NCBI RefSeq assembly: GCF_001029265.1
Contig: NZ_CP011856.1
Coordinates: 372,001-436,000, forward strand
Direction of reading: 5' to 3'
From: Spiroplasma eriocheiris
GTDB lineage: Bacteria; Bacillota_I; Bacilli_A; Mycoplasmatales; Mycoplasmataceae
DNA length: 64,000 bases
Both the position numbers and the translations under genes were made by a program. Of the stretch, positions 13,588 to 55,830 are shown piece after piece (within the stretch, counting starts at the first letter, position 1; each line of letters starts with the position of its first letter). The notes under the pieces were generated by a model. That model searched no databases. It was not told the origin of the DNA and saw only the letters and a program-made list of their open reading frames with translations.

Positions 13588-16122
13588 ATGTATTCAAAAG
13601 AACTTGTTGCTAGTTTAAATGCTGATATTCGTGCTTATTTTCCCCATATTAAGGAAATTGAACCTGATTATCATATGACTTTTGATGGTGTTTCAAGAAT
13701 GGTAGTCTTAGATCGTTATGCTCAAAAAGATAATGGTTTAAAAACATTAAAAAATAATGATCTTGTGATTACTGTTATTAAAGATGATGGTTGATTCCCA
13801 GCTCGGGGGTTTGGACATATTGTTAAAGTTGATCGTGAAGCAGGAACATGTGACATTAAAGTTGAGGAAGATTATGTTAATAGTATTGATCCTAATTTAT
13901 TAGTGGGTAGTGAAAAAGATATTATTCGTAAGAATCTTAATACTGTGGAAAAACCGTTAGAAATTTACTATGAACAAATTGCCTGACGAGTTGCTAAAGC
14001 GTTATCAAATAATGAAAAAGAACATGAAAAATATTTACAGATTTTCTTTGAAGAATTAAAAAACTTAAATATTGTTCCTGCCGGACGGGTACTATATGGG
14101 GCTGGCAGTGGTAGTGATGTTACTTTTTTTAACTGTTTTGTAATGCCCTTTATCAAAGATTCTCGGGAAGGAATTTCAGTTCATCGTAAAGAAGTAATGG
14201 AAATTATGTCCCATGGGGGTGGCGTTGGAACTAACGGAACTACTTTACGTCCTCGCGGCACAATTGCCAAATCAGTTGGGGGTCGCTCATCAGGAGCAGT
14301 TTCGTGGTTAAATGATTTAAGTACGTTAACCCATTTAGTAGAACAAGGTGGAAGTCGTCGGGGAGCACAAATGATTATGATGGCGGACTGACATCCAGAC
14401 ATTATTGAATTTATTATTTCTAAAATGCAAAATCCCAAGATTTTACGTTGGTTAAAGGATAATTCTCAAGATCGTTTAATTCGCGAGGAAGCTTCGCGAA
14501 AAATTAAATTTGTTCCCTTAACAAATTCAGAACGGAATTTATATGAATGAGCAATAAGTAAAGAAAATGAAGTTGATAGTAAAATTTTACAAGATGCCAA
14601 AATTAAATTAGAAGAGGGTGGAAATTGAGAAGTTGAAAACCCATCTTTCTTATCAGGCGCTAATATTTCGGTTACAATTTCTCATAAGTTTATGCAAGCA
14701 GTTGAAAATGATGATATTTGAGAATTAAAATTCCCAGACTTAGATAAATATACCCCAGAACAAAAACATTTTTATGATGAAAACTGACATAAAATTGGGG
14801 ATATTTATGAATGAGAGCAAATGGGTTATTCATTAAAAACATATTACACAATGCGTGCTCGTGACTTGTGAGATTTAATTAACTTTTGTGCTAATTATTC
14901 AGCTGAACCAGGTATTTTCTTTATTGATCAGGCTAATGATATGACAAATGCAAAGGCGTATGATATGAAAGTAGTTGCTACAAACCCTTGTGGTGAGCAA
15001 CCCCTTGCCCCATATTCAGTATGTAACTTAGCAGCTATTAACCTAGCTAATTTTGTTAATAAAGAAACAAAAGAAATTTTATATGATAAATTACAAGCAA
15101 CTGTTCGCAACTGTACTCGTTTGCAAGATAATGTTATTTATGCAACACCCTATTTTTTAGAAGCTAATAAAAAACAAGCTCTTGGTGAACGACGAGTTGG
15201 GTTAGGAGTAATGGGGTTACATGACCTATTAATTTACCATGGTGTTCGTTATGGAAGTCTAGCTGGTAATAAAATTGTTGATAAAATTTTTGAAGTAATT
15301 GCGACAACTGCTTATCGTACTTCAATTGAATTAGCGAAAGAAAAAGGCAGTTTTCCGTTCTTAAAAGATCGTGAGCGTTTTATTAATACAGGTTATATGA
15401 AAAAAATGCCAGAAGATATTCGTCAAGATATTTTAAAATATGGAATTCGTAATTCGCACTTATTAACAATTGCTCCAACTGGCTCAACTGGAACAATGGT
15501 GGGAGTATCAACCGGTCTAGAACCATATTTTGGTTTTAAATTCTATCGTTCAGGACGATTAGGGAAAAATATTGAGGTTAATGCTAAAATTGTTGATGAA
15601 TGATTAAAATATAACCCTGGTTATAGTGCTGATCATTTACCAGATATTTTTGTCTCAGCAATGCAATTAGCACCTGAGGAACATGCTGATGTGCAATGTA
15701 TTATTCAGCGTTGAGTTGACTCTTCAATTTCAAAAACTGTTAATGCTCCACGCGGATATTCTGTAAAAGATGTTGAAAAAATTTATACCCGTCTATACCA
15801 TGGGGGTGCTAAAGGGGGAACTGTTTATGTTGATGGTTCGCGCGATAGCCAGGTGTTGTCATTAACAACAGATAATGAACATCCTGCTTTAGAACAACTT
15901 AACTTAGAAAATTTAGGGGTAGAAGTTATTTCAAACATTGATAAAAATGAAATTGATAATAACTTAAAAGAAGCAGTTAAATTACGGGGAATTAACCAAG
16001 ACCGCAATGTGGGAACAGAAGTTGGTGATGTTTGTCCAATTTGTAAAGAAGGAACAATGATTGATGCTGGTGGTTGTGTGACATGTAATAACTGTAATGT
16101 TCAATTAAAATGTGGCCTATAA
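13588..16122 (+). CDS. nrdJ: Adenosylcobalamin-dependent (class II) ribonucleotide reductase
   Basis: Converts ribonucleotides to deoxyribonucleotides using a radical generated from adenosylcobalamin. The 844-residue single chain has the first active-site cysteine near Cys183 (FFNCFV), the substrate loop and the NPCGEQP active-site motif at Cys468 and Glu470. The C-terminal tail has CPIC, CVTCNNC and a final CGL, the cysteine-rich ending typical of NrdJ. There is no adjacent small subunit, as expected for class II. Many TGA codons are read as Trp. GAAGGAGTGAG precedes ATG 13588. The gene is monocistronic with a long terminator behind it. Its cofactor requirement connects it with the B12 uptake operon at 52.5-55.8 kb. 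Confidence 0.93.
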
Positions 16123-17365: not shown

Positions 17366-17412
17366 CAGGGCATGATTTTAACAAGAATTAAAAATAGAAA
17401 GAAGTGCTAAAG

Positions 17413-17730
17413 ATGAATTTACTGTTACATACCTTAAACCTACTAGGTGATAACCCGGCCCCGCCCAATGCGAGTGATATTTTAGCAACAGTAAAACCAT
17501 GAGTAAATATGGCGTTAGGGATTATTTTTGGGTTACTAGGACTATTTTGTGCGGTTAAATGTGCAATTATTGGATTTCACATTGCCAAAGCAGCTGATAA
17601 TCCGGAAATGCGTAGCGAATATGTACGCTCCCTAGTTTGACCAATTATTGGGTTGTTATCTGCTGTGTTAGTACCAACAATTGTTAGTGTAATCTTAAGT
17701 CAAATTTCGGGACCCTCAGTTGGTAGTTAA
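17413..17730 (+). CDS. Pilin-like conjugal transfer protein, 105 aa
   Basis: A small protein with two hydrophobic segments (about residues 32-58 and 76-98) joined by a short charged loop. An N-terminal Pro/Asn-rich stretch is probably outside the membrane. Size, layout and the following VirB6-like, VirD4 and VirB4 genes match the VirB2/TrbC-type pilin-like proteins of mycoplasma integrative conjugative elements (Mbov_0395 family). One-to-one orthology is not proven. The ribosome site before ATG 17413 is weak (AAAGAAGTG). It would form the pilus or channel lining. Confidence 0.7.
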
Positions 17731-17762
17731 CATTTAAAATAATAGAAAGCAGGTGATAAAGA

Positions 17763-18926
17763 ATGGGAAACATTTTTAAAGAAGCCCTCTACGAAGTACT
17801 CTGGGGAGTCTTCGTAATGGGACCATTACAATTAATTAATGTTTTTACCTATGTTCTAGATTATTTATCTGGAGGTTTTATCACTACAATTTTATTTGGT
17901 AATCAAAATAACTTTGATTTTAACAAATTACCCCAACAATTTTGAATTTTTTTAATTATTGCAATTGCAGTGTTTGCTGTTATTTTTTGTATTCAGATTA
18001 TGATTATTCAATTTAAAGAGCATGCCGAAAGTAAAAAGAAATTTTTGCAATGTCTCCTCAATTCAGGAAAAGCAATCATTTTTATGTTTTTAATTCCAAT
18101 TTTCTTTTTTGTCGCTAATTTCTGTATTGCTCAGTTTACCAAAACAATTGAGAATTCCTTTGGAAATAACGGTTCAATTGCGGATTATTTATGACATTTA
18201 GGTGATCCCAATTGGGATGGAACTACCAATTATACCCCTAGTGACTATGGTCCTCCAAATAATATTCTTGATTATAATATGACTGTGGAAATTTTTGGGT
18301 CATTATTTATGGTCGCGATTGTAATGTTAGTTGGTTTTATGGTTATTCAAAAAATTATTGAATTATTTTTCCTATTTATTATTTCCCCAATTGTGATGAT
18401 TACAATGGTTTTAGATGATGGTAAGAAAGTCTTTGTTTGAAAAGATATGGTTATTGCCAAATTTCTGGCCTCCTCCTCTGCAATTATTGGATTTGATTTG
18501 TTTATGACAATTACCCATTTAATTCTGAAAACAAATCTTTCTGGCTTAGATGCAAAACCGTTTGCTCGTCAATTATTATTAATTCTAATTATTTGTGGGG
18601 GTGGAGTGGCCACTTATGAATTCTCAAATATTATTAATTCATTAGTTGGTGAACATATGGGAGCTTCTTCTGGTTTGAATACTTTTCGGGCAATGGCTGG
18701 TGGGTTAACCTCAGCTTGAAACCCAGCAACCTTACCGCGCCATTTAGGAAAAATCCCGGGAATGTACCGGACTGCTAAAAAAGGGCATGATTTCTTAATG
18801 AACAGTGGTGATAGTAGACAAAGAGAAGAAAATGACCAAGCTCGTCGCACATGACAAAATGCTAATGTCGGAACGCGCCGCCGCAATACTATTCCTGGTC
18901 TTAATGGTAATCATCATAATAATTAA
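17763..18926 (+). CDS. VirB6/TrbL-like transmembrane protein, 387 aa
   Basis: A multi-pass membrane protein with about six hydrophobic segments between residues 10 and 300. A hydrophilic, Arg/Asn-rich C-terminal tail covers about the last 60 residues. This layout, between a pilin-like gene and the coupling ATPase, matches the inner-membrane channel protein of type IV secretion and the Mbov_0396-type protein of mycoplasma ICEs. AGGTGATAAAG precedes ATG 17763. It lies 32 bases from the pilin gene and 32 from the VirD4 gene, so it belongs to one operon. Family membership is inferred from topology and context. Confidence 0.7.
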
Positions 18927-18958
18927 TAAAATTGCCTCAGAAAGGAGAACAACAATTG

Positions 18959-20980
18959 ATGAAAGAGTGATTTAAAAAACGAAAATGGATGATTTTATTT
19001 CTTAGCATTGGTCTATGAGTTTTTATCTTTATAATGCTACTAGGATATGCAGTGTTCTATGATTTAGCACATAATAAAACTGTTAATTTTAAGGATATTG
19101 AGCAAATTTTAACAACTAACCAAAATAATTTTTTAACAATCTATGGTGCAATTGTTGGGGGAGTATACTTAATATTTGCCTTATTTTTATTAATTTTTAA
19201 ATATCATATTCGTTATGAATTTGTCGGAAAAACCCATGATAAAACATATGGGTCGGCAGAATGATTGAGTGTAAAACACTTAAATAAAAATTATGATTTG
19301 GTAAATTTAATGCATGCTGGTGATAAATACGGAGTTGTCGCTAATTCTTTCACCGGTAAAAATAAAAATTTTATGGCTAATATTCGGAAAGAAACCCATA
19401 CAATGGTTGTTGCGGGGACTCGGAGTGGGAAAACACAGGGGGTTGTTATTCCAACCTTACAATTATTTGCACAATCAGAGGTTAAGCCAGGAGTTATTAT
19501 TTCTGATCCCAAAGGAGAACTATTTGAAACTAACTCTAAAGTTTTTGCCGATAATGGTTATCGAGTTCTAAAGTTAGATTTACGAAGTCCAGAATTATCA
19601 GTCGGTTGAAATCCCCTAACATTAATTTATCAAGCCTGAGTAAAAGGGTGTGAATTAGAACGCAAGTATAAAGATAGTAATGGAACTGACCAAGAGTCAT
19701 CTAAATATTATTACTGGCAACAAAAAGCTCAAGATTACTTATCAGATATTTGTACCACTTTATACCCATGAAGTGATCCCAAGGATCGGTTTTGACAAGA
19801 ATCAGCGAGTGGAGCTGTCAAAGGGATTTTGTTAGCAATTTTATATGATATGCGTGAAAATAACAGTTTTGATGAAAAAAAATTTAACCTTGCTTCAGTT
19901 ATTCCAATTATTAATAACAAAGATAAATTATTTAATTATTTTAAAAAATTAGATATTTCTCATCCTGCTCGGATTGCAATTTCGGGGTTATTGGATGGGG
20001 CGAAGGAAACAACTGGTTCAATTTTGCAAAGTATTAAAACAGGGTTAGAAAAATTTAGTGACCCAATCTTAAGAACTCTAATTAGTAAAAATGAATTAGA
20101 TTTACAAACTTTAACTAATTGTCCAACTGCTGTTTTCTTAGTGGTTCCCGATGACCGGACAGATCGTCATATCTTTGCCAGTCTTTTTATTTCTCAATCA
20201 TATAAAATTTTGATTGAACAAGCTAGTTTAGCGAACCGAAAATTAGAAAAACCATTTTATTATATTTTAGATGAATTTGCTAATATTCCGAAAATTCCTG
20301 ATATGGGGGCAAAAATTTCAGTGTCTGGGGGGCGAAATATCTGATGAGTATTAATTATTCAAGATAAACCCCAGTTAGTTGATAAATATGGTGAAAATAT
20401 GGCCCGGACAATTAATAATAACTGTAGTATGCATATTTTCTTACAAACAATGGACATTGAAACAGCAAAATATTATTCAGAAATTATTGGGGAACGCACA
20501 ATTGTTTCAAAATCACGGAGCAACCAAGTTTTATTAGAAAAAAAACAAGCAAGTGGAACTCGCTCCTTATCAGGAGTTAGTTTAATTAAACCAGCTGATT
20601 TAATGCAACTACCAACAGGCCATGCGGTTGTGGTATATTCTAAAGAAAAACCATTAAAAGCCAAATTAATGCCAATGTGAAAATCTCCGTGTTATGCAAT
20701 GGGAAAAGTTGCTGATGAGGAATCTGTTCCCTTGACAGATGAAATTTTTGGGAAAGATTATGTTTATATCTTAGCAGCCGAAAATGATGACGCTTCTAGT
20801 GATAGTGGCGGTGGAGGAACTAACCAAACCATGGAATTATTACTAGAAAAAGAAAAACTTATTAAAGTCGAAGGAAAAGCAATTGAGATTGAAGAAATTT
20901 TAATTAATGAAGAAATTGATCCTCGAATATCAAAAAGTTTAACGGAAAAAATTGAAGAAATTTATGAATTAACTAAGTAG
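18959..20980 (+). CDS. VirD4/TraG-family coupling ATPase
   Basis: This protein brings DNA or protein substrates to the transfer channel. Two N-terminal membrane helices (about residues 8-30 and 60-82) precede the cytoplasmic ATPase domain. Walker A GTRSGKT is at residues 153-159 and Walker B ILDEF is near residue 438. The middle sequence (SDPKGELF) is typical of VirD4/TraG. The total of 673 aa is close to the family average. The C-terminal tail is acidic with an SDSGGGG linker. AAAGGAG before ATG 18959 supports the start; a TTG directly upstream is in frame but less likely. Several TGA codons are read as Trp. Confidence 0.9.
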
Positions 20981-48525: not shown

Positions 48526-48612
48526 AGAATAGTTTTTTAAAACTATTTTTTATTTTTGATTATAATTAAATTAAATACTAATCAAAATGCTGAGAAGAAA
48601 AGGAAAATATTA

Positions 48613-49437
48613 ATGAAGATTATTTTTAAATTAATCTGAAAATTTCAAAGTAAATCATGAATTTCCGGGGCATTAATTTTTATTGTGCCAGTGATTTTTT
48701 TATTTATAAGTGTGGAAACAGCAAATACTTTGAATAGTGGTTCTAGCAACGGCCCTTATTTAGCCCTCCCCGGTGTAATTTTAGCCATTAGTCCGCTAAT
48801 TGGCTTAATTAATTTAGGAATTACTATTTCTGAAATTCGGAATACCACTTTTTATAAACACTTAAAAATTAGTACAATTAATCTACCAATTTTGTTTGGC
48901 AGTTTAATAATATATAACCTCTTTGTTACTATAATAGGAACATTATGAATAATGTTAGTTGGTTTTAGTGTTTATCATTCATATCTCCATGCTTTTAAAT
49001 GAATTAACTGACCATTGTTTAGCCTCGCGATCATTATTAGTACAATTTTAGCTTGTAGTTTAGGACTTTTATTAGGAATTGTCATTAATAATTTTAAATG
49101 AAGTATTATTATTGCGCTAGTTATCTTTTTATTAAGTATTTTCTTATCAGGGTTATATCTCCCCCTCATAATTTTAAAAAATAATTTATTTTTAACAATT
49201 ATTAGTTATTGCTTACCTTTTACTTACCCAATGGGAATTTTATTAGTTAGTTGATATTATTCTCCTCCAGTTATTCCCGTGACCGGACAACCACTTGTCA
49301 AAGCAAGTGATTATAGTATTTTTTCCAACTTAACAATTCCATTAATAATTAGTTTAGTTTTAATTGGCATTATTTTATTAGTAATTTTAGGATGATGATA
49401 TTTTAAGTATTTCCATTTTAGCAAGGGGGCATATTAA
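48613..49437 (+). CDS. ABC-2-type permease-like membrane protein, 274 aa
   Basis: A six-helix membrane protein with the layout of an ABC-2 permease (helices near residues 20-40, 55-75, 95-120, 140-165, 175-195 and 235-262). A conserved FLSGLYLPL and SYCLPFTYPMG stretch is shared with the following gene. ATG 48613 follows AAAAGGAAAA. It ends one base before the next gene's start and is about 40% identical to it by eye, so the two are tandem paralogues that probably form a heterodimer. No ATPase gene is adjacent; the nearest in the window is at 59136. Confidence 0.75.
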
Positions 49438-49438
49438 A

Positions 49439-50236
49439 ATGAAGACTTTCCACTTAATTTGGCGTTACCAAAATAAATCAATTTTATTATGGTTTTTAGT
49501 TTTTATTTTACCAATTATCTTCTTAGTAATTATGACCCAGTTAGCAAGTTTAATGAACAGTCAAGTGGCTGGAAAAGCTGCTTTTATTGTATTACCAGGC
49601 ATTATTTTATCAATTGGTCCCACTATTGGTTTAATTAACCTTGCTATTACGATTGCTGAACTACGAGTTACCAAGTTTTATAAGCATTTAGCTGTGTTGA
49701 TGGTAAATGTTAAAGATTTTATTGTTAGCTTAATTTTATATAATTTATTAATTAGTATTATTAGTTCAATGTGAATTATGGGTTTCGGGTTTTTAGTTTA
49801 TAATTCCCAAATTAATTTTAGTTGAATTAATTGATTTTATGTTTTTATTGCTGTTGTTCTGAATTCTATTTTAGCTTGTTTAATCGGTTTTTGTTTAGGA
49901 ATTGCTTTTAATAACTTTAAAGTAACGTTGTTATTAGCGGGGATTATATTTTTATTAACTGTCTTTTTATCAGGGCTATATCTACCTTTATTAGTAATTA
50001 AAGCTAGTCATTATTTAAAATATTTTAGTTATTGCTTACCCTTTACTTACCCAATGGGGGTGATGATTCTTGGGTGGTATAATTTTGTGCCTTTATATAA
50101 TCACCATCCAATTGTTGACCAAGGAACCTATAATTTATTTGATAGTCTCACTGTTCCCTTAGTAATTTCTTGCTGTTGAATTTTAGTTTTTTTACTAATA
50201 ATTTATTTAATTAGTAAATTAAAAAAATGAATTTAA
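49439..50236 (+). CDS. ABC-2-type permease-like membrane protein, 265 aa
   Basis: A paralogue of the preceding gene with the same six-helix layout and the same FLSGLYLPLL and SYCLPFTYPMG stretches. The AAGGGGG ribosome site lies inside the end of the upstream gene, so translation is coupled. Several TGA codons are read as Trp. Partner ATPase and substrate are unknown. Confidence 0.75.
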
Positions 50237-52524: not shown

Positions 52525-52551
52525 TTGACAACTTCTTCATATTATTAAGAT
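52525..52551 (+). promoter_or_regulatory. Promoter of the riboswitch operon
   Basis: A perfect TTGACA at 52525-52530 is followed by TAAGAT at 52546-52551 (15-base spacing) or AGATAA at 52548 (17). The riboswitch begins about 20 bases later. Confidence 0.55.
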
Positions 52552-52567
52552 AACAACTTAAAAAAGC

Positions 52568-52720
52568 AAATTTTGGATATTACGGGAATTAGGTGCAAGT
52601 CCTAGGCTGTCCCAGCAACTGTAATGCTGATGAACACTATAAAAATCCATTGAGATAAAGATCTTGAGAAGGAATAGTAAGTAAAATGAAGCTAAGCCAG
52701 TAGACCGATCTAAAAATTTA
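52568..52720 (+). ncRNA. Cobalamin riboswitch
   Basis: Conserved core elements appear in order: GGGAA, AGGTGcAAgTCC, GCtGtCCC, GCAACTGTAA (52584-52624) and the B12 box AAGCCAGTAGACC near 52694-52706. The outer P1 stem can form between AAATTTT at 52568-52574 and AAAATTT at 52713-52719. It binds adenosylcobalamin or a related corrinoid and controls the genes downstream. A terminator hairpin at 52837-52860 suggests control of transcription elongation, as in other Firmicute cobalamin riboswitches. Confidence 0.9.
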
Positions 52721-52836
52721 CAAACCAATTATCAATACGATAATTATTATCCCTGGGGTTTGGATAATTAATTGTTTACTAGTAGTTAAAATGAAGGTTG
52801 ATTTTCTAACCAAAACCTACTAATTAATAATTATTC

Positions 52837-52860
52837 AAAACGCTCCAAAAGCGTTTTTTT
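52837..52860 (+). terminator. Riboswitch-controlled terminator
   Basis: AAAACGCT at 52837-52844 pairs with AGCGTTTT at 52850-52857 and runs into seven T. It lies between the cobalamin riboswitch and the first gene, 22 bases before the ribosome site, as expected for an expression platform. Confidence 0.8.
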
Positions 52861-52894
52861 AGTTGTTAAGAACTCATAATTAAAGGAGAACAAT

Positions 52895-53392
52895 ATGAAT
52901 AAAACTAATAAAAAAAATTGAGTAATGTGGTTAATAATTGCCCTTGCGAGTATTATTTTTAGTGCTTCGGTAATCTTAAACATTACATATTTGCCAAAGT
53001 ATTTTGCATTAAAAAATCGGGTTGATAATACTTTAAAAATAAAAATTAATGCCTACGATGCGACAAAACCGGTCCATGAAATGTTGTTTAGTTCCAACTA
53101 TGAATCAACAATGTTAACATTAGGAGATTTAATGCAAAATTATCCTGATAGCTTTGCGGTTATTGCCAGTGGTTCTTTAGGACATTGGCTAGAAGGAGTT
53201 AATACTAACAAAGGATGAATTAAAAAAACAGCTCATGATTCTGAATATTGAGCAATTACCAGTCCCACAAATTCAAAATGTAAGGGTAATACTGATCCTA
53301 AAAGTAATATTTCTGATATTTGTGGGGTAGGGATTGATGATTTATTCTTGAAAAATAATGATGTTTTTAATTTAATGTTAGTTACACAATAA
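52895..53392 (+). CDS. Transcobalamin-like (DUF4430) membrane-anchored protein, 165 aa
   Basis: A probable surface corrinoid-binding protein. The basic N-terminus and one helix (about residues 11-32) form an uncleaved anchor or signal. The rest lies outside: LTLGDLM near residue 76, HWLEGV, EYWAIT, then a Cys-containing loop and GIDDLFLKNNDVFNLML at the end. This order of W..., YW... and GID..L..ND.F matches the C-terminal domain of transcobalamin and intrinsic factor (DUF4430). The two cysteines in the loop may form a disulfide. AAAGGAG supports ATG 52895. It is the first gene behind the cobalamin riboswitch and is a paralogue of the gene at 55237. Confidence 0.82.
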
Positions 53393-53396
53393 AATT

Positions 53397-54128
53397 ATGA
53401 AAAATTTTTGAGGTAAACTAAAAACAAAATTTTTGTTTCATAAGCGTCCTTATACTATTAAAACTTTAATTCAAATTTGCTTAATTCCAATTTATGCGGC
53501 GTTAGTTTTTGCGTTAAAAGAAGCAATGGCTTTTTTACCAAACATTGAACCAGTGACATTATTAATTTTATTTGCTGGAGTTTATTTTCCTTTTTATATG
53601 AGTTTTAGTATTAGTCTAATTTTTTGCTTTCTTGATGGTTTATACTGGGGTTTTAATTTAAGTTGGTTTTTACCATACTTAATTATTTGGCCACTTTTAG
53701 CGGTTATTGGGCGAGTTTGTCGTCCGGTAATTCTCAAATGATGGTGAACATTTATTATTATTGCTGGTCTTTTTGGGTTATTATTTGGTTTTGTTTTTGC
53801 TGTTATTAACTGACTAGTAGTGGTCATCATTGGTAACCAAATTAACGGGGGGCAAAGTTTTGCCTTAATTGCCTGATGATTAAACGGATTATCTTATGAT
53901 GGTATTCACTGTGCGGGAAATATTATGATGGCCGGGGTTTTATTTTATCCTTTAACCAGACTATGAGTTAACCATCTCCAATATTATTTATTTTATGAAG
54001 ATGATAAACGCATTATTTCCTATAATATTTTTTCCAAAAAAACCCAAGCAAAATTAGAGACGACTTCATCATTTGAAATGAAACCATTAGAACCATTAAG
54101 CGAAAACGAAAAAATACAAGAGAGGTAG
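53397..54128 (+). CDS. ECF transporter S component, probably for cobalamin
   Basis: The substrate-binding membrane subunit of an energy-coupling-factor vitamin importer, 243 aa, with about six helices between residues 20 and 195. The W..GLSYDGIHCAGNI stretch near residue 168 matches the G-x-x-x-D-x-x-H-x-x-GN signature of a corrinoid-type S-component group. The C-terminal ~45 residues are hydrophilic. No ribosome site is seen before ATG 53397, which starts four bases after the upstream stop, so translation is probably coupled. The shared EcfA/EcfA'/EcfT energising module is not in the window. B12 specificity follows from the riboswitch and the DUF4430 neighbours. Confidence 0.82.
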
Positions 54129-54140
54129 TTACATTTAAGA

Positions 54141-55178
54141 ATGAAAAAATTATTAACAATATTTACGAGTCTAACTTTATTAACCACTATTACAACACCA
54201 TTGGTGGGGTGTTTAAATAATCAAACAAACAATCAACAATATCAAGAACCTGCCTGAGTAAAAACTTTTGCGAAAGTGGTTAGTCAAAACAAAGAAGCAG
54301 TCAGAGTAGCATATGAAAATTATTATGTTGATACCAATACCAAATCAATTTGGGATCAGCATGATTATTTAGATATTGCAAAAAATAATAATCTTTTTAT
54401 TTATTTACAAGCAGCTAATAATTTAACAGAAGCTACGCAGTATTTACAATTAATTGATACTTCTGATATGGGGATGACAACAAAAGGAAAAGAACCAATA
54501 ATTTTTGATAGTAATTTTGAAAGTAACCAGTTTATTACCCAAGATACTTCGGTAGGTGGAGCTGCATTAATGGCCTACCAAAAATTTGATGATATTTTAA
54601 ATAGTAGTAAGGCAAAAACAACTTGAGGTGATAAGAACCGTGAAAGTTTTATTAAATTTGGTTCAATGTCAAAATACCAAGGTGACGACCGAGCAACTTG
54701 ATGAAATTCAAACCACTGAGAAAAATTACTATCAACTGAAAAAAATATCCCAGATTTAAAAAATAACCCAAATGTTTATTCAGAATTAGATTTATATAAC
54801 CAGTGAGCAGCGGGTAATCCGGGCATGAATGTGCCGCTAAGTGTAGTAGCAAAGGGATTGTTTAAATTACATGCAACAACTCAAAAGCATGTCTATCGTT
54901 TGGAAGTTAATTCAAATGAATATTGGATTAATAATAATGGGGAAGTAGTTACTTATTCATTACCTCACTGGGGATTTATGTTTCGAATTTATGATACTCC
55001 TAATCAACAAGCATGAACGAAAGATCATTTAGCTTTTTCGTCACCTCAATTGCCAATTATTAATAAAGAAATGTTTAAATATCAAGACATTAAAGATTAT
55101 TTATTACAATCAGATTATTTATCATTTAATGACCAAGAAACCACAAAATTTAAAGATAATAAAATTATGGCTAGTTAA
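54141..55178 (+). CDS. Lipoprotein in the cobalamin operon, 345 aa
   Basis: A surface lipoprotein. The signal peptide ends LVGC with the lipidated cysteine at residue 24. The mature part is hydrophilic, Asn-rich and without further cysteines. A Trp- and Tyr-rich C-terminal region (HWGFMFRIYDT near residue 283) lies before the end. The family is not recognised; its place between the S component and a second DUF4430 gene suggests a role in corrinoid capture or delivery. It starts 12 bases after the S-component stop with AGAGGT upstream. Several TGA codons are read as Trp. Confidence 0.72.
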
Positions 55179-55189
55179 CGTCATATCAT

Positions 55190-55219
55190 AACATTCGGAA
55201 AAATATCCGCACGAATGTT
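55190..55219 (+). other. Intercistronic hairpin in the cobalamin operon
   Basis: AACATTCG at 55190-55197 pairs with CGAATGTT at 55212-55219. An alternative inner CGGA/TCCG stem is possible. No T run follows, so it is not a standard terminator; it may affect RNA stability or processing between the two genes. Confidence 0.55.
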
Positions 55220-55236
55220 TGCAAAGGAGAATTAAG

Positions 55237-55830
55237 ATGAAAAATTTACTAACAATAATGTCAAGTTTAACATTAATTACAACCCCAATAATTTCGCAAG
55301 TCGGAAATATCCAAAATGCAACACCGCAGGAGCTATTAACACCGGGGGTTGATAATAATTATCAGATTGATGCTAATTGGGATTTTAGTTCCGCTATCCC
55401 TAGCAATAATGAAACCATTACTATTAATGCTTATGTTGACTGATCACAATGAGATCCAGCAAAACCCCAACAAACATTAGCAACAATTACAACTAAAATT
55501 GATAAAACCTTATTACAAGATGATAATACTTTAGGTAATCTAATGAATTATTTAAATAATTATTATCCAACAATTACTGCTGGTATCAAAGCACCTTTTA
55601 AAATTAATCCGGAGGTAACCCAATATGGGCGAGTTTTAGAAGGAATTTATGATTGGAATAAATCAGTTCAGGATTATTTAACTGGTTGAAAAGAGTCATA
55701 TTGATCATTAAATAGTCCCACTAATCCATTTTGTGCTGAGCAGCCAAATAATTATTGTACCAGAGGAATTGATGGTTTAGAATTACAGCAAAATGACACA
55801 TTTGATTTGTATTTTGTAAGATTAGTTTAA
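55237..55830 (+). CDS. Transcobalamin-like (DUF4430) secreted protein, 197 aa
   Basis: A second probable corrinoid-binding protein. A signal peptide without a lipobox cysteine covers about residues 1-22, so it is probably released or processed. The mature part shows LGNLMNYL, a YDWNKSV...TGWKESYWSL region, a two-cysteine loop and GIDGLELQQNDTFDLYFV. This is the same order as in the gene at 52895 and in the transcobalamin C-terminal domain. AAAGGAGA at 55223-55230 favours ATG 55237 over the in-frame upstream TTG. It is the last gene of the operon; a 13-bp hairpin follows at 55866. Confidence 0.8.

Follow-up and report, generated by a model that had tools for sequence, protein, structure and literature searches.

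The best-described counterpart of the system considered here is the energy-coupling factor (ECF) transporter ECF-CbrT of Lactobacillus delbrueckii (structure 6FNP), which transports cobalamin and cobinamide and whose CbrT protein is encoded in the cluster nrdJ-cbrS-cbrT-pduO (PMC5997447). In Lacticaseibacillus rhamnosus, a DUF4430 protein lies beside rtpR and an "additional lipoprotein component of putative cobalamin ECF transporter" is annotated (PMC9963975), and in Streptomyces nrdABS is reported to be under a cobalamin riboswitch (Borovok 2006, as cited in PMC4991794). For the mollicutes, the counts of a 2009 survey imply that none of 17 mollicutes used cobalt or B12 (PMC2667541), and we found no paper on B12 riboswitches in Spiroplasma in the literature searched. 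Here we describe a riboswitch-headed operon of four genes, A to D, in Spiroplasma eriocheiris (contig NZ_CP011856.1; genome of 1,365,714 bases, genetic code 4), which very probably mediates B12 uptake that is repressed by adenosylcobalamin (AdoCbl) and serves the class II ribonucleotide reductase NrdJ. The operon lies within a stretch of 64,000 nucleotides, hereafter the window, whose numbering is used throughout unless a genome position or another locus is named; G and L numbers denote related genomes and loci.

The operon, its switch and the reductase it would serve

The features on which the argument turns are as follows; the four genes are open reading frames under genetic code 4 and are not intact under code 11.

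52558-52727, + strand: cobalamin riboswitch aptamer (RF00174)
52739-52776, + strand: P13-like hairpin from folding, the kissing-loop partner; its loop CTGGG (52753-52757) complements the aptamer loop CCCAG (52611-52615)
52837-52861, + strand: terminator-like hairpin with a T run, between the switch and gene A
52895-53392, + strand: gene A, 165 residues; N-terminal membrane helix and transcobalamin-beta/DUF4430-like extracellular domain
53397-54128, + strand: gene B, 243 residues; ECF S component, CbrT-like
54141-55178, + strand: gene C, 345 residues; lipoprotein with lipobox Cys24
55237-55830, + strand: gene D, 197 residues; second DUF4430-like protein, secreted or membrane-held
13588-16122, + strand: nrdJ, AdoCbl-dependent class II ribonucleotide reductase

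The aptamer was recovered by cmscan over the complete model (positions 1-189) with 86 bits and an E value of 8e-20, against a curated cut-off of 31.5 bits; it is the sole Rfam RNA in the window and one of three cobalamin riboswitches in the genome. Of 41 related switches, 35 have a complement of the aptamer loop further downstream, where 0.5 would be expected by shuffling, and the paired loops covary from switch to switch (CCCAG/CTGGG, CCTAG/CTAGG, ACCAG/CTGGT). Because the complement is this frequent and changes in step, the loop-loop contact known from cobalamin switches is well supported. The terminator is a different matter: the one hairpin of this kind in the switch region compares with 1.4 in shuffles and is thus not above chance, so its weight comes from its position and from the similar hairpins found at many other B12 riboswitches. 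Together, the riboswitch and the hairpin are predicted to act as a ligand-responsive OFF switch. An earlier note on this DNA had proposed the riboswitch, the T-tailed hairpin and four genes with gaps of 4, 12 and 58 bases; the full-length covariance-model match bears out the first, and the hairpin and the gene spacing are as it had them.

Gene B by itself matches chain A of 6FNP (phmmer E 1.2e-6), and its family profile reaches the same structure at E 1.6e-15 as its sole match in the PDB. The protein thus resembles the S components of the CbrT family, with cobalamin transport as its predicted function, and the ECF S component proposed in the earlier note proves, by sequence, to have the B12-specific CbrT as its one match among solved proteins. 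The driving module would be shared: the genome encodes EcfT (150 bits), and immediately upstream of its gene are two ATPase genes, for EcfA and EcfA' (L155). In sequence, B12 as the substrate is most strongly supported by three species (G024, G031 and G036), in which the S component and the adenosyltransferase BtuR are fused in one reading frame:

L080, 3650-4726: S-BtuR fusion
L087, 3639-4715: S-BtuR fusion
L082, 3631-4707: S-BtuR fusion

The likely user of the imported vitamin is NrdJ, whose gene lies in the same window, outside the coordinates covered by the earlier note. It matches TIGR02504 with 541.5 bits (cut-off 399.95) over genome positions 385957-387858, corresponding to 13957-15858 of the window, and contains the Pfam reductase barrel domain. 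The genome has one BtuR; adenosyltransferases of the PduO type were found in none of the 60 genomes searched. Across these relatives, nrdJ and the S component agree in 57 of 60 (p 2e-12), and nrdJ also co-occurs with the DUF4430 family (p 2e-10) and with BtuR (p 4e-9), all of these being Fisher values that ignore genome relatedness. In gene order, nrdJ adjoins the uptake operon in G004, G006, G008, G010 and G012 and lies inside it in G020. Of the genome's other two B12 riboswitches, one stands before nrdD-nrdG and one before nrdF-nrdI-nrdE, both of which encode B12-independent reductases.

We propose the following sequence of events. When AdoCbl is scarce, the transcript would read through into genes A to D. 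Protein A, tethered by its membrane helix, the secreted D and the lipid-anchored C would hold corrinoids on the surface of the wall-less cell and hand them to the CbrT-like B, with the shared EcfA-EcfA'-EcfT module, whose genes lie at another place in the genome, driving the import. BtuR would then turn the imported corrinoids into AdoCbl for NrdJ, and rising AdoCbl would shut the operon and, through the two further riboswitches, nrdDG and nrdF-I-E as well. The binding of corrinoids by A, C and D, their hand-over to B and the response of the switch are the parts of this scheme that we infer.

Lipoprotein C and the linked ABC-2 permeases

Protein C carries a mollicute lipoprotein signal (LP_plasma 26.3 bits, above the curated cut-off of 24), which upholds its earlier designation as a lipoprotein. 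It has no relative in Pfam or the PDB, and its model, of moderate confidence (predicted local distance difference test score, pLDDT, 72), yields no convincing fold: the best Foldseek E value is 0.33 and Z does not exceed 4.4, with some weak immunoglobulin-like rows. Copies of C were found in nine Spiroplasma genomes (NZ_CP011856.1, G004, G006, G008, G010, G012, S. platyhelix, sp. JKS002669 and sp. AdecLV25b, in the last of which the gene is split over two reading frames), and broken remains persist in G001, G003 and G005. Without exception, a cobalamin riboswitch stands at the head of the operon that contains the copy, and some copies have a switch of their own. This recurrence speaks for the earlier suggestion that the then unrecognized middle protein is a new part of the system. 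When 296 genomes of the class were searched, further matches spanned mainly the signal peptide. Judged by sequence, C appears to be a new lipoprotein family with homologues in Spiroplasma only.

Several candidate relatives of C were considered and rejected. Profile comparison with DUF4430 proteins shares signal-peptide similarity alone; alignments with the lipoproteins of G019, G020, G029 and G045 are limited to signal peptides or a few residues; and L133, at first sight a distant relative, is a chance match in a locus that carries ThiI- and NifS-like genes.

Upstream of the operon lie two genes for permeases of the ATP-binding cassette (ABC) 2 type:

48556-49437, + strand: ABC-2 type permease 1, of the same family as the permeases beside C in relatives
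49439-50236, + strand: ABC-2 type permease 2 (PF01061, 41.9 bits), of the same family as permease 1

Apart from that of S. platyhelix, each of the other intact copies of C has a member of this family beside it, in varying positions: ahead of the switch in G004, G010 and G012, between it and C in G006 and G008, and after C in sp. JKS002669 and sp. AdecLV25b. Close members of the family (above 150 bits) occur almost nowhere but in genomes that have C or remnants of it. No ATPase gene adjoins the permeases at 48556-50236 in the window.

On balance, C seems somewhat more apt than not to take part in B12 uptake. The most serious alternative is that C has some other surface function, for example in export together with the ABC-2 permease, and is induced by B12 limitation; we regard this as a substantial minority possibility. 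The company of an exporter-type permease would suit such a role, as would the lack of a recognizable fold and the loss of C in G009 while A and B stay. It accords less well with the placement of all intact copies in B12-riboswitch operons, in some cases with their own switch, or with the unrelated lipoproteins that occupy the slot of C beside the S component in G019, G020, G029 and G045, as if a surface lipoprotein were required there. A more specific form of the uptake role is offered only tentatively, at well below even chances: C and the ABC-2 permease may together constitute a new corrinoid-acquisition device of wall-less bacteria, in which C would capture B12 or a B12-carrying protein at the bare membrane and hand it over via the two transcobalamin-like domains to the S component, with the exporter-type ABC transporter helping.

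Between genes C and D, at 55190-55219, there is a perfect 8-base inverted repeat (AACATTCG/CGAATGTT) without a T run, possibly an RNA processing or stability element.

Transcobalamin-like proteins A and D and the imported corrinoid

Proteins A and D are homologous (phmmer E 3e-5, with a common family profile). Their family has at least 18 members, most of which conserve a cysteine pair between the last strands. The AlphaFold2 model of A has a pLDDT of 86 and matches the human transcobalamin beta domain in 5np4 (Foldseek E 4e-6). Its VIA Z scores are 11.7 to 2bb6 and 13.1 to 3u7z, the next unrelated fold reaching 6.5, and the beta domains of transcobalamin, intrinsic factor and haptocorrin together with bacterial 3u7z fall in the range of 10 to 13. 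The fold result is that of the model of A; D is placed by homology. Pfam DUF4430 (PF14478) matches 3 of the 18 family members, the best at 1e-8, and one homologue, L151 of sp. JKS002669, scores 31.3 bits against a cut-off of 23.8. The DUF4430-like character ascribed to the two proteins in the earlier note therefore stands at the level of fold for A and through homologues that reach DUF4430, A and D alone being without a Pfam match.

According to its title, 5np4 is the isolated human beta domain with cyanocobalamin bound, and a beta domain alone can therefore hold B12. Corrinoid holding by A and D is probable. It is also conceivable, though fairly unlikely, that they are structural or regulatory surface proteins of DUF4430 fold that bind no corrinoid and that the S component handles B12 alone. 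A fold by itself is not a function, neither protein has its own Pfam match, and two S components have a C-terminal extracellular part of their own that weakly resembles A. Set against this are the bound cyanocobalamin in 5np4 and the way in which the family tracks the S component and nrdJ across genomes. An unlikely variant on the substrate side is that the S component imports cobinamide or another cobamide instead of B12 itself. ECF-CbrT also carries cobinamide (PMC5997447), but the last step, with BtuR and NrdJ, requires a complete cobamide. That the matches are chance or decayed relics without function is highly improbable: C and nrdJ remnants do occur in some relatives, but here the reading frames and the kissing loop are intact, and purifying selection is evident on gene A (dN/dS 0.15) and gene B (dN/dS 0.06).

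Some points nonetheless weigh against the reading of the operon as a B12-uptake system for NrdJ. The case for B12 use has NrdJ as its one support, because neither PF02310 (B12-binding) enzymes nor QueG were found in the genome, and the relatedness of the genomes is left out of the co-occurrence values. At the protein level, A and D by themselves match no Pfam family even at E 1, and the fold of A is no proof of corrinoid binding. Finally, the close relative G009 has lost gene C and has a stop codon in D; since only A and B are intact there, these two form the core and C and D are accessory.

Three further observations concern S components. The genome contains a second, more distant CbrT-like S component (L153 5359-6024, genome 661359-662024, minus strand), as do G006 and G008. 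The S components at L066 2624-3805 and L095 2155-3267 have an additional C-terminal membrane helix and extracellular part, which may be a diverged DUF4430 domain. The extra domain of the G020 S component gave just a weak C-terminal alignment with DUF4430, and no such claim is made for it. Elsewhere in the window, conjugation-like genes (for a small membrane protein, a large membrane protein and a VirD4/TraG-like coupling protein) directly follow nrdJ at 17404-20980.

Switch targets in relatives and comparison with known systems

It is informative to consider what else the B12 riboswitches of this group precede. In nine Spiroplasma genomes, one lies ahead of deoD and genes for a deoxynucleoside kinase, a transketolase, a 2-keto-3-deoxy-6-phosphogluconate (KDPG)-type aldolase and a nucleoside deoxyribosyltransferase-like protein:

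L064, 1366-6530: riboswitch-headed deoxynucleoside-salvage operon; likewise L035, L040, L042, L045, L048, L059, L061 and L065

Some copies of this operon are broken, as in G013 and L065, and the genomes that have it gave no class I reductase match in the reductase search. The readable switch targets, which leave out G044 and G050, thus appear to form two groups: corrinoid capture and B12-independent deoxynucleotide supply. Because these targets are B12 capture and DNA-precursor routes, they suggest a direct, testable link from vitamin supply to the choice of deoxynucleotide source. Import, adenosylation and a B12-dependent reductase are all retained in about one third of the relatives sampled, mostly with B12 switches as well. 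Two side observations belong here. A third type of B12-riboswitch operon (L046 7737-8204 onward, L060, L039) encodes a D-like protein, another lipoprotein of about 295 residues and an ABC ATPase. G001, G003, G005, G007, G011 and G013 gave no class I or II reductase match, and all but G007 keep B12 riboswitches.

Most parts of the operon are of known kinds; lipoprotein C and the linked membrane protein look new. Within the literature searched, there is no precedent for the mollicute setting, lipoprotein C, its linked ABC-2 permease, the S-BtuR fusions or the salvage branch. With the fusions and the surface parts that keep recurring, the older supposition that DUF4430 proteins of bacteria hold B12 can be put to a direct test, and C offers a definite candidate for a corrinoid-capture protein of a new kind.

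Comparison with the described systems reveals both shared and divergent features. With ECF-CbrT of L. delbrueckii, the Spiroplasma system shares a CbrT-like S component, a shared ECF module and a link with a class II reductase as well as with an adenosyltransferase. It differs in its cobalamin riboswitch, its two DUF4430-like proteins and its new lipoprotein, in an adenosyltransferase of the BtuR rather than the PduO type, and in belonging to a code-4 mollicute. From L. rhamnosus, a DUF4430 protein beside a B12-dependent reductase and an annotated surface partner for a cobalamin ECF transporter are both already on record; structure, riboswitch and second copy are absent from the discussion in that account (PMC9963975), and Spiroplasma A is anchored through a membrane helix instead of a lipid. 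The fold of A is that of the transcobalamin and intrinsic factor beta domain (5np4, 2bb6, 2pmv) and of bacterial DUF4430 3u7z, although A lacks the alpha-barrel domain and consists of the one domain carried on a membrane helix; most members of its family conserve two cysteines. Likewise, as is reported for Streptomyces nrdABS, a B12 switch would repress a B12-independent reductase in a genome that also has a class II enzyme; in Spiroplasma, however, the switches cover class Ib and class III reductases and, in sister species, deoxynucleoside salvage.
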